This document shows positions 30,297-33,297 of a stretch of 40,504 nt of DNA, in pieces. The DNA lies in NCBI GenBank assembly GCA_017477245.1, contig JAFUWY010000032.1:1-40504 (forward strand), given 5' to 3'. Each line of letters starts with the position of its first letter. Within the stretch, counting starts at the first letter, position 1. Position numbers and translations under genes: made by a program. The notes under the pieces are model-generated. The model was given only the letters and a program-made list of their open reading frames with translations, did not search any database and had not been told where the DNA came from. Source of the stretch: Bacteroidales bacterium. GTDB lineage: Bacteria; Bacteroidota; Bacteroidia; Bacteroidales; UBA932.

Positions 30297-30578
30297 TCAT
30301 GGGTGTGGCGAGTTATGGGAATAGATTCCCCCCAGTGATTCATAATTACAAAGCCGAGTGTAGGAATGGAAATAATCGCTAGTGTTTCCCTCCGACATTC
30401 TGCGAACGCCGATAGATCGGGCAATGACATTCAGAATGGTAGATTTCCCTGAACCGTTGCCGCCGTAGAAAATAGTGACTGGCGCAAATTCAACCTTCCC
30501 TAAATCCTTTTGGGCCATAACTGTATGCGGATAGACATCCCTGTCAGTTTCCGCAAAAACGAATGATTTGAGATACAT
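30297..30578 (-). pseudogene. Truncated AAA_21/SMC-like ATPase
   Basis: This 93-residue frame begins MYLKSFVF and contains an intact Walker A, FYGGNGSGKSTILNVIA (about residues 38-54), like the N-terminus of the roughly 250-residue stand-alone AAA_21 ATPases of gut Bacteroidota and Firmicutes. It stops soon after, with no signature motif or Walker B, and only about 100 bp separate it from the next gene, so the rest is deleted. It lies 5 bp after clpP in the same direction. A functional short ATP-binding peptide is unlikely. Confidence 0.65.
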
Positions 30579-30583
30579 GGCGT

Positions 30584-31243
30584 CTACTTGCTTAGGATCC
30601 TGTCGATCATACCATACTCCTTGGCTTCAACGGTATTCATCCAATAATTACGGTCGGCATCAGCGAAGACTTTTTCATAGGATTGCCCACAATGATGCGA
30701 GATGATATTACAGAGTTCCTGGCGGCATTTCTCGATTTGCCGTGCTTCTATCAATATATCCTCCGCCTGTCCCTGGACGCCTCCTAGTGGCTGGTGGATC
30801 ATGACACGGGAGTGGGGGAGCGCGCTGCGTTTCCCCTTTGTCCCGGCGCAGAGGAGGACGCTGCCCATCGACGCGGCCATGCCCGTGCAGATGGTGGCGA
30901 CATCGGGCGTCACGAACTGTATGGTGTCATAGATTCCAAGGCCCGCACTGACGCTTCCGCCGGGCGAGTTGATGTAGAGAGAGATGTCTGCCTTCGGGTC
31001 GTTGGAGGAGAGGAACAGCAGCTGGGCCTGGATGATGTTGGCCACGTCGTCGTCGATGGGACATCCGAGCCAGATGACCCGGTCCATCAAGAGGCGGGAG
31101 AAGACATCGATCGAAGTTGCATTGAGCTTTCGCTCTTCGATGACGGCGGGATTGATGTGGTTGCTCACGACAGCGCCATAGCGGCTGAGGGTAGCTGTAC
31201 CGATGTTCCTGTCATAGCAGGCGTATCTTTCAAATTCAGTCAT
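30584..31243 (-). CDS. ClpP-like protease subunit with Asp-to-Asn change in the catalytic triad
   Basis: This 219-residue protein is a full-length ClpP: INSPGGSVSAG, the nucleophile GMAASMGS (Ser125), and HSRVMIHQPLGG (His150). The spacing 125-150 equals Ser97-His122 of E. coli ClpP. The third triad position, 49 residues on, is Asn199 (codon AAT, 30647-30649) in ADRNYWMNTVEA, where ClpP normally has Asp. A similar natural Asn occurs in Listeria monocytogenes ClpP1, which needs a ClpP2 partner. The gene lies 13 bp after a AAA+ ATPase gene with a C-terminal IGF, not a ClpX. I infer a specialised, perhaps hetero-oligomeric, protease chamber. Confidence 0.88.
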   Translation of the reverse strand: MTEFERYACYDRNIGTATLSRYGAVVSNHINPAVIEERKLNATSIDVFSRLLMDRVIWLGCPIDDDVANIIQAQLLFLSSNDPKADISLYINSPGGSVSAGLGIYDTIQFVTPDVATICTGMAASMGSVLLCAGTKGKRSALPHSRVMIHQPLGGVQGQAEDILIEARQIEKCRQELCNIISHHCGQSYEKVFADADRNYWMNTVEAKEYGMIDRILSK

Positions 31244-31256
31244 GATTTAAATGCTA

Positions 31257-32888
31257 TTAAAAACCTATTTTCTTGCTTTGTGTCTTGTTTTCCAGTTTCT
31301 CGGCTCCGCAGTAGGAGCGTAGAACTTCCATGCGGTCAGTCTCGTCGCCATGCAGGATGGCGTTGATCGTGAACTTCCGGGAGACATTCTCCATCTGGCC
31401 TCCGCTGAGCTCATAGGAGACGGCCAGGTCATGGCATTCCTGGGAGGATAGGGAGGGAATCATCGTGTGCCAGATCTTTTCCCGGACGGTGACATCCGGA
31501 CGGTCGAACTGGATCTTGTATAGGAAACGGCGCTCGAAGGCGGGGTCCAGATTCTGTGTGAGGTTGGTCGTGGCGATGAGAATGCCATCCAACGATTCCA
31601 TTTCCTGCAGGATGATGTTCTGGATGCTGTTCTCCATCTTGTCCACAGCGTTTTGGGCACCTTCCATTCGTTGGCCGAAAATGGCGTCGGCTTCATTGAA
31701 GAGAAGGATGGGGGCCGTCTCCGAACGCTGCACCAGCATACGATACCGGTCGAACACGGCCTTGATATTCTTTTCAGAGTCACCTACCCACTTGCTCTTG
31801 ATCTCGGGGACGTTGACGGCCATAATGCTGCGGCCGGTTTTTCGCGCAAGTTGATAAACGGTTTCCGTCTTTCCCGTGCCCGGAGATCCGTAGAACAGGC
31901 AGGCGAATCCGCTGCGGTATCCATGGGCCTTCATCCTCTCCCGAATCTCCTTGTAGCGTTCCGGCATCAGGAAAGATTCGAGTTCATCTACCTGTTCTTC
32001 ATTGCCGTCGGTGTAGAAGAGTGTCTTTTCAATCAGCGATTCCGGTTTTGTCAATCCTGCAACGGCAGTTTCCGAGGAATGCAATTTGAACTCAGATAGC
32101 AGGATCTGGCGGGCTTTCGTAGTCAGGTGAATCTGCGAGGTATTGGCGATACCATCTTCGCAGACATGCTCGATGAGCCCTTCCTGCATCAGGTAATGGT
32201 TTCCTTCTTTCAAAGCGTTTTTCGTTTCACTGAAACTGCTCTTGCAGCGGAAAACATCTTCAATCTGTCTGAAGTTGATCCTGTCGTCATCCTTGTTGAT
32301 CAAATAGTGGCAGACGATGACAAGGACCATCCAGTCGTCGTAGCGGTCGAGTTTAAGTCCGTTGAGCTCACGAATGAACGATAGATGTCCGTTTGCTTCA
32401 AAGAGGTCCTTCAACTCATGATATAACTCTCCCGGAGCAATGGCATTGTCATCCAGATCCTCGAAATAGTCGTTCAACCGGTCAAATAGGTCGTGGATGC
32501 TGAGACCGTTTTTTTTCGGTGGCTCAGGGATGTCATTGTTCTTGAAGGCCCGGATGACGGTCCTAGGGACATCGAAAGAGTCCTCATCCTTGGCGTCGTG
32601 GAATTTCAGATACCGTGCCCGGATGAGAGCATTCAACTCATCGCTATAATCCAACGCCAGGATATTGCTGATATCCAGATGCCGGGAAATATCGTTGTAA
32701 TCCACGTTCCGGGGACCGTGGCGCAGACAGATGGACAGCAATACCGCTTGCTGCTGGGTAATGTTCAGTTTGGAGGCAAGGGCTGCGGCTGCATCTTGAT
32801 TGTCTGCCCAGAACTCTTCTCCCAGTTTCGAATCATTGGACTTTTCTGACAGAAGATCCATCAGTTGAAGAATGCTCTTCGTTGTCAT
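31257..32888 (-). CDS. AAA+ ATPase with C-terminal IGF tripeptide, candidate ClpP-docking unfoldase
   Basis: With the start at 32888 (MTTKSILQLM) it has 543 residues; an ATG at 32912 would overlap the previous gene. The first 300 or so residues are helical with segments resembling winged helices (TTKARQILL). The AAA module has Walker A GSPGTGKTE (334-342), an aromatic pore-loop KWVGDSEKN (W367), Walker B LLFNEADAI (Asn398-Glu399, with Asn in place of the usual Asp), sensor-1 ATTN and paired arginines FERRF (453-454). The very last residues are SKKIGF. IGF is the ClpX loop tripeptide that binds ClpP; here it is at the C-terminus, in the manner of proteasome activators. clpP follows 13 bp later. 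Confidence 0.85.
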   Translation of the reverse strand: MTTKSILQLMDLLSEKSNDSKLGEEFWADNQDAAAALASKLNITQQQAVLLSICLRHGPRNVDYNDISRHLDISNILALDYSDELNALIRARYLKFHDAKDEDSFDVPRTVIRAFKNNDIPEPPKKNGLSIHDLFDRLNDYFEDLDDNAIAPGELYHELKDLFEANGHLSFIRELNGLKLDRYDDWMVLVIVCHYLINKDDDRINFRQIEDVFRCKSSFSETKNALKEGNHYLMQEGLIEHVCEDGIANTSQIHLTTKARQILLSEFKLHSSETAVAGLTKPESLIEKTLFYTDGNEEQVDELESFLMPERYKEIRERMKAHGYRSGFACLFYGSPGTGKTETVYQLARKTGRSIMAVNVPEIKSKWVGDSEKNIKAVFDRYRMLVQRSETAPILLFNEADAIFGQRMEGAQNAVDKMENSIQNIILQEMESLDGILIATTNLTQNLDPAFERRFLYKIQFDRPDVTVREKIWHTMIPSLSSQECHDLAVSYELSGGQMENVSRKFTINAILHGDETDRMEVLRSYCGAEKLENKTQSKKIGF

Positions 32889-32895
32889 TTGTGTG

Positions 32896-33297
32896 TTATT
32901 CTTTTTTCCCATATTTCTCGTATACTTTAAGAACGCGTTCTGCGCGTGCGAGTCGTTCCTTCGCATTTAGGAGCGAATGCTTCTCTCGATTTATTTCTTT
33001 GTGGAGGCAAGCAATGATAAATTGTACAGCTTCATTTTTTGTCAGAAAAACCTGCTTGGGGCTCATTTCGCCGTGTTCGTTAAAGAAGAAGTCCCGGCTG
33101 ATGAGCCTGCCGTCTTCCGTTTCATAGACGGTGTACTCGATTTTCAGATCGTGGAAAAGACGTCCGCGCGTCTTGGTCTTCACGCCGATGATCCTGGTTT
33201 TCTTGATGGAGTAAGCCGCATCGCTCCCTATGACATAATAGACAATGTCACCAATGGACAGATCAAGCTTTTTAAGGTAGAAGTCTCTGCTGTTCAT
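32896..33297 (-). CDS. Unknown small protein of the AAA+/ClpP operon (133 residues)
   Basis: This 133-residue protein is not recognised. The N-terminal half is strand-rich (IGDIVYYVIGSDAAYSIKK, YTVYETEDGRLISRDFFF), resembling a small beta-barrel fold. The C-terminal third is a long basic and charged helix (HKEINREKHSLLNAKERLAR, then AERVLKVYEKYG). It ends 7 bp before the AAA+ start, and it begins 4 bp after a 60-residue gene, so it is part of the operon. It could be an adaptor or substrate, but nothing in the sequence proves this. Confidence 0.65.
   Translation of the reverse strand: MNSRDFYLKKLDLSIGDIVYYVIGSDAAYSIKKTRIIGVKTKTRGRLFHDLKIEYTVYETEDGRLISRDFFFNEHGEMSPKQVFLTKNEAVQFIIACLHKEINREKHSLLNAKERLARAERVLKVYEKYGKKE

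Follow-up and report, generated by a model that had tools for sequence, protein, structure and literature searches.

A classical-AAA ATPase with a C-terminal Ile-Gly-Phe tail beside clpP: a candidate proteasome-style ClpP motor in a Bacteroidales bacterium

The window analysed here comprises positions 1 to 40,504 of contig JAFUWY010000032.1 of a Bacteroidales bacterium (UBA932; assembly GCA_017477245.1), whose genome assembly comprises 2.38 Mb in 48 contigs and is 96% complete. On its reverse strand the gene of a AAA ATPase is followed, after a gap of 13 bp, by clpP. The features of the pair are:

31257..32966, minus strand: AAA ATPase gene, 569 aa from the first ATG, Pfam AAA at 1.2e-25
32097..32879, minus strand: N-terminal region of the ATPase (about residues 30–290), predicted to be tandem winged-helix-like
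31866..31889, minus strand: Walker A, GSPGTGKT, read back from the DNA; K366 in 91/92 aligned family members, with one gap
31782..31793, minus strand: pore loop, KWVG, read back from the DNA; position 393 is W in 89/92 members and Y in 3/92
31692..31709, minus strand: Walker B, ILLFNE, read back from the DNA; N424 and E425 in 92/92 members
31527..31532, minus strand: arginine pair R479-R480, candidate arginine fingers, invariant in 92/92 aligned members
31260..31268, minus strand: C-terminal IGF, residues 567–569, read back from the DNA; proposed ClpP-docking tail
30584..31243, minus strand: clpP, complete, 219 aa, Pfam PF00574 at 255 bits (cut-off 20.2)

The ATPase frame has later ATGs at codon 19 and at codon 27 (position 32888, the start used in a preliminary description of this DNA), either of which may be the true start. 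That description had listed a AAA+ module with Walker A, KWVG, arginines and a final SKKIGF 13 bp from clpP, all of which were read back from the sequence; the Walker B that it also listed is present, but reads N-E instead of D-E, as it does in all 92 aligned members. The terminal IGF is the sole [LIVM]G[FLY] triplet in the protein, and there is no internal IGF loop.

The profile families that match the ATPase best are IetA, CDC48, CdvC and the proteasomal ATPases, while the ClpX profile TIGR00382 gives no match at E 0.01. Scores of 105.6 bits against the IetA profile NF042959 (curated cut-off 510; the PADLOC IetA match is at 1.9e-31) and of 54.7 and 52.4 bits against the PAN/Mpa profiles TIGR03689 and NF003069 (cut-offs 504.75 and 500) rule out membership of IetA or PAN by profile, as the missing TIGR00382 match does for ClpX. 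Structure comparison with an AlphaFold2 monomer model (mean pLDDT 90.6) gives an Rpt/PAN-like fold, in agreement with the best families and with the earlier view that the architecture is not ClpX-like. Several of the Rpt alignments reach residues 567–569, and the tail sits near the Rpt C-termini; the tail block itself has a pLDDT of 53 and is without secondary structure. Fold searches with the N-terminal region returned weak winged-helix matches only.

The window ClpP carries a Ser-His-Asp triad (Ser125, His150 and Asp195, read back from the DNA). Formerly called a paralogue, it is in fact the single ClpP match in its genome, and no ClpX over the curated cut-off was found in that 96%-complete assembly. 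According to the accessible portions of PMC8182300, ClpP clefts are built by two subunits and are bound by a V/I-G-F/L motif on ATPase loops, and in those of PMC11005422 mutation of Y62 or F82' in B. subtilis ClpP is described as impairing the binding of acyldepsipeptides. By alignment, the equivalent residues of the window ClpP are Y and F, in keeping with docking in this pocket. The tyrosine is found in 58/58 ClpP rows compared; the F82 equivalent is Leu in 36/58, which counts against a pocket-docking reading. Several further pocket positions differ from those of E. coli ClpP. Just after clpP, at window positions 30297-30578, lies a 93-aa AAA_23-type ORF that ends early and is perhaps a remnant.

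Relatives of the ATPase were gathered from whole genomes, from a genome collection (the best 80 of 583) and from 38 viral loci, part of which belong to other families. They yielded 125 unique family ORFs; the tail census covered the 119 that are closed and excluded those running off the end of a contig. A C-terminal [IVML]G[FY] followed by 0–10 residues is present in 117 of the 119 closed members (95 IGF, 17 VGF, 2 MGF, 2 IGY and 1 LGF), the two exceptions being an ORF that is broken or truncated and another whose last residues are HIAGFTA. Across a 92-row alignment the Gly is invariant, the Phe is replaced once, by Tyr (91/92), and the first place is I, V, M or L; the three positions carry 3.1, 4.3 and 4.2 bits, compared to at most 1.9 bits for each of the preceding 24 residues. 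E556 is invariant and is separated from the motif by a linker of 7 to 13 residues, and 88/92 members have K or R within the four residues that precede the motif. This combination of variable linker, basic residues and conserved tripeptide is typical of short linear motifs that serve in docking. As 54/92 members also have an internal [LIVM]G[FL] triplet, the triplet is special only at the terminal position.

The tail is not a product of chance. Among other closed predicted genes of at least 100 aa, 8/1419 share such an ending, and since three of these eight are AAA members missed by the motif filter, the chance rate is approximately 0.35%. With a stricter pattern ([ILVM]GF plus 0–6 residues, applied to caller-predicted genes for P-loop proteins of at least 200 aa), the tail is found in 112/118 members of the window family, 19/26 kinase-AAA-like and 11/13 triple-AAA-like proteins, compared to 0/38 ClpX-like proteins and 1/76 other P-loop proteins (a distant relative). 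Similarly, among 34 mid-scoring AAA proteins it is confined to that same relative and three kinase-AAA members. A cultured carrier, Segatella copri DSM 18205, has the gene on a plasmid (LK433_RS14095), where it ends KRKIGF. Five further distant relatives, proteobacterial and borne on plasmids, include one from Azospirillum; tails were read in the other four (GIGFLQ in Rhodoferax, AIGFLH in Pantoea, PIGFV in Methylomonas and KVGFLK in Aliarcobacter). No record in the phage collection covered 80% of the window ATPase query.

A ClpP gene lies within two genes of the ATPase in 7/125 family members, one of these encoding a ClpP-like protein of 28% identity. The six clear cases are the window, genome G231 twice (once convergent, once two genes apart), G062, and loci L112 and L160. 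The preliminary description had expected the tail exactly when clpP is adjacent and had read the adjacency as a dedicated two-gene protease. The first expectation proved wrong and the second found no support: the 117 tailed members mostly have no neighbouring clpP, and the closest relatives are tailed without it, namely L096 (84% identical over 250 residues, on a contig that begins inside the ATPase gene) and G221 (65% identical), both with no clpP in the available DNA. In another 5/125 members the ATPase directly adjoins a short ClpX-like gene. Mapped onto a FastTree tree (119 rows), the six clear clpP neighbours require six changes and the five ClpX-like neighbours a single change, although two of the clpP rows are long branches and so their places in the tree are unsure. 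Neighbours were taken from an ORF caller with codon scoring, and many loci are short-flanked. The five short genes (L068, L208, L213, L238 and L240) encode 358–368 aa and are 50–54% identical to ClpX; each is paired with a tailed ATPase, perhaps as two different motors on one ClpP.

The tail is shared by two further AAA architectures, which were surveyed across 250 genomes of the window's genus. In relatives that have clpP and no ClpX match, the neighbour of clpP is often another tailed AAA protein. One such architecture is a protein-kinase fusion (Pkinase plus AAA in Pfam, one protein scanned), which directly adjoins clpP in G008, G104, G143, G229, G132 and G082 with endings such as KRPKIGFDN, KRPRIGFNN, KRVRIGFDSY or alike. 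An IGF/IGY ending is present in 19/22 kinase-AAA proteins with a kinase part (of 24 matches, those in G136 and G086 were dropped on inspection as they have no kinase part; including them gives 19/24). The three without it are in G021, G199 and G225. The preliminary description had named a clpP-adjacent homologue without the tail as evidence against its proposal, and the G021 protein, which ends VSGL beside a divergent clpP, is a case of this kind. The G199 and G225 proteins belong to one subfamily (67% identity), so that their lack of the tail counts as one event; both genomes are without ClpP and without ClpX match, and the missing tail there speaks for the link with ClpP. The other architecture is a triple-AAA protein of 990 residues, which ends KKGKIGF and adjoins clpP in G177; 12/12 closed rows of this family end in IGF/IGY (14 rows, two open-ended), while a Virgibacillus homologue has no IGF-type tail. 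In the kinase-AAA of G104 (L229:7260-9002) Walker A reads GPPGCGNT, an Asn replacing the Lys; the copy is perhaps inactive, or the sequence in error. After the tailed triple-AAA gene at L288 (G175) there is a clpP-like stretch, 49% identical over 39 residues, perhaps a clpP remnant.

Among the same 250 genomes, 198 have a ClpP match, 184 have ClpX or a ClpX-like protein (E 1e-40 or better, short ClpX-like genes included; 180 are over the cut-off) and 49 have neither, the last including G023 (97% complete) and G019 (91%). There has thus been apparent repeated loss of ClpXP in this genus. In G022, ClpX lies beside trigger factor without a start and with a stop inside the match (L075/L074) and clpP is on another contig; its ClpXP is apparently in decay. 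A ClpP match is missing from 2/71 carriers of any tailed family compared to 50/179 non-carriers (p 1.5e-6, kinship ignored), and for the window family alone from 2/50 carriers compared to 50/200 others (p 4e-4, kinship ignored). In the subset of genomes with completeness of 90% or more and contamination of 5% or less, the figures for the window family are 1/31 carriers and 12/68 others (p 0.058, kinship ignored). Tailed AAA proteins are carried by 10/15 genomes with ClpP and no ClpX, compared to 59/181 with both (p 0.011, kinship ignored); G209 and G242, where the contig ends inside clpP, were left out of the ClpX-less set, and including them gives 10/17. The five ClpX-less genomes with ClpP that carry none of the three tailed families count against the association. 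Elsewhere, ClpP was checked in 50 records (the 11 family members among the 38 viral loci, and 39 chosen from the 80 genome loci). A match was present in 37/39 cellular carrier genomes, with none seen in 2/39, and PF00574 was matched in 3/11 viral contigs, although virus records may be fragments. The 339-kb viral contig IMGVR_UViG_3300028887_000002 (L171) encodes both a tailed ATPase and a full-strength ClpP.

These distributions bear on whether the tail acts on ClpP at all. It is kept in members without an adjacent clpP and in genomes with no ClpP match (G146 and G249, which carry the window family, and the two cellular genomes from elsewhere), although absence from an assembly is no proof of absence. 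The tails of proteasomal ATPases and of HslU act on other peptidases (for HslU, accessible portions of PMC4106860). It might be supposed, then, that the tail works inside the ATPase ring or on another partner, such as an HslV-like peptidase or a protein encoded nearby, and that its likeness to the ClpX loop is coincidental. We regard this as unlikely, as three AAA architectures share the tripeptide and each is found beside clpP, the tailed families co-occur with ClpP across the 250 genomes, and the tail is of low confidence and without secondary structure in the monomer model. A putative ClpP-docking tail best accounts for the motif, for its terminal position, for its presence on motors of three types and for the association with ClpP.

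A second alternative arises from the gene neighbourhoods. The commonest neighbour cluster contains WYL regulators (35 loci of the 125 members, many short-flanked), followed by RNase_T (14), sigma-70-like proteins (12), PLD (9), MoxR-type AAA (9), RtcB (8) and GmrSD (8), these Pfam names resting on one representative scanned per cluster. The proteobacterial relatives adjoin WYL, DUF2779, PLD or RtcB genes, and near the window ATPase are DUF2779 and two PDDEXK_4-like genes, one of them under the Pfam cut-off. The WYL and nuclease-type neighbours suggest a stress or defence (anti-phage) setting, and IetA of the IetAS system is the named defence profile closest to the AAA part, although the match is far under its cut-off. 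The partner of IetA, IetS, is a subtilisin-type protease; a Pfam scan of ten window proteins found no domain of that type. On these grounds the adjacency to clpP could be fortuitous, in a genus whose ClpXP is being lost, and the ATPase could work without ClpP, for example in IetA-like defence alongside nucleases. The nearest relatives, which have no adjoining clpP in the available DNA, and the 49 genomes missing both ClpP and ClpX matches are in keeping with this. Such an accident would nevertheless leave unexplained the terminal IGF in 117/119 members, the ClpP or short ClpX-like neighbours in 12/125, and the tails of the kinase-AAA and triple-AAA proteins, and we consider it very improbable.

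We propose instead, and hold it to be quite probable from sequence and model, that the window ATPase is a classical-AAA unfoldase (of the Cdc48/PAN/Rpt type) which docks on ClpP by a flexible C-terminal Ile-Gly-Phe tail. The tail would enter the hydrophobic clefts of the ClpP ring, where ClpX and its kin place an internal IGF/LGF loop, in a geometry like that of the proteasomal ATPases, which insert C-terminal HbYX tails into the 20S ring; substrates would then be unfolded by the ATPase and degraded by ClpP. In the window genome, where no ClpX was seen, the pair may be the main ClpP machine, while in most carriers a tailed motor would share the housekeeping ClpP.

The proposed arrangement combines features of known machines. 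In ClpX, ClpA and ClpC the IGF/LGF motif that reaches the ClpP pocket lies in a loop (accessible portions of PMC8182300 and PMC11005422). The window ATPase shares the tripeptide and, as we infer, the partner, but in these proteins the motif is in a flexible loop whereas here it forms the very end of a classical AAA protein. The Clp ATPases form another clade of AAA proteins than the classical one. A C-terminal HbYX tripeptide docks the proteasomal ATPases (accessible portions of PMC11475706). PAN and the Rpt proteins have both the AAA fold and the C-terminal position of the tail in common with the window ATPase, but PAN, Rpt1-6, Mpa/ARC and Cdc48/Cpa pair HbYX with the 20S particle, whereas the window protein, which ends IGF and lacks the HbYX motif, would pair with ClpP. 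The N-termini also differ, as the proteasomal ATPases have a coiled coil and an OB ring where the window ATPase has a tandem winged-helix-like region. HslU falls in the clade of ClpX, and its partner HslV is a peptidase of the 20S type. The C-terminal tail of HslU acts on the HslV peptidase (accessible portions of PMC4106860), as is proposed here for the window ATPase and ClpP.

Jumbo phages carry ClpP, ClpS, ClpA and ClpX (accessible portions of PMC7824862), and no IGF-tailed AAA protein is named in the accessible portions of that paper or of PMC4012209 and PMC9035409. We found no natural C-terminal IGF on a ClpP ATPase in the openly accessible literature, which is weak evidence of absence. 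AAA-ClpP proteases as such are a known kind; what would be new is how this motor docks and to which class it belongs. More broadly, we lean towards the view that IGF-tailed AAA motors form a general class spanning three or more architectures, a protein-kinase fusion among them. Their C-termini would insert into ClpP as those of proteasomal ATPases do into the 20S proteasome, and the motors would replace lost ClpX in some lineages, share ClpP elsewhere and, where phage-borne, could redirect the ClpP of the host. If this is true, a proteasome-type motor on ClpP joins two machines thought to be differently built, a three-residue tail predicts numerous ClpP partners, as yet unannotated, in gut bacteria, on plasmids of proteobacteria and in phages, and the persistence of ClpP in lineages that have lost ClpX is in part explained.

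The site of the window pair also recurs among relatives. Two window genes, which we take to be hisG and hisD, form a pair that is found again in other genomes (matched by C-termini). The order is kinase-AAA, clpP, hisG, hisD in G104, G082 and G132, and kinase-AAA, hisG, hisD in G201; in the window it is tailed ATPase, clpP, three ORFs (including the 93-aa AAA_23 ORF and a PDDEXK_4 gene), hisG, hisD. Because these gene orders recur across relatives, one class of tailed motor may have been exchanged for another at the hisG site. The window ClpP, however, shares 78–79% identity with its counterparts in G145 and G150 but 68–71% with those in G104, G082 and G132, and the ATPase and clpP may therefore have arrived together. 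Other genes were seen near clpP at L222, L223, L224 and L249, namely a 359-aa MoxR-type AAA protein (L222) and a protein of at most 393 aa whose C-terminus is like HxWMExSGRVC.
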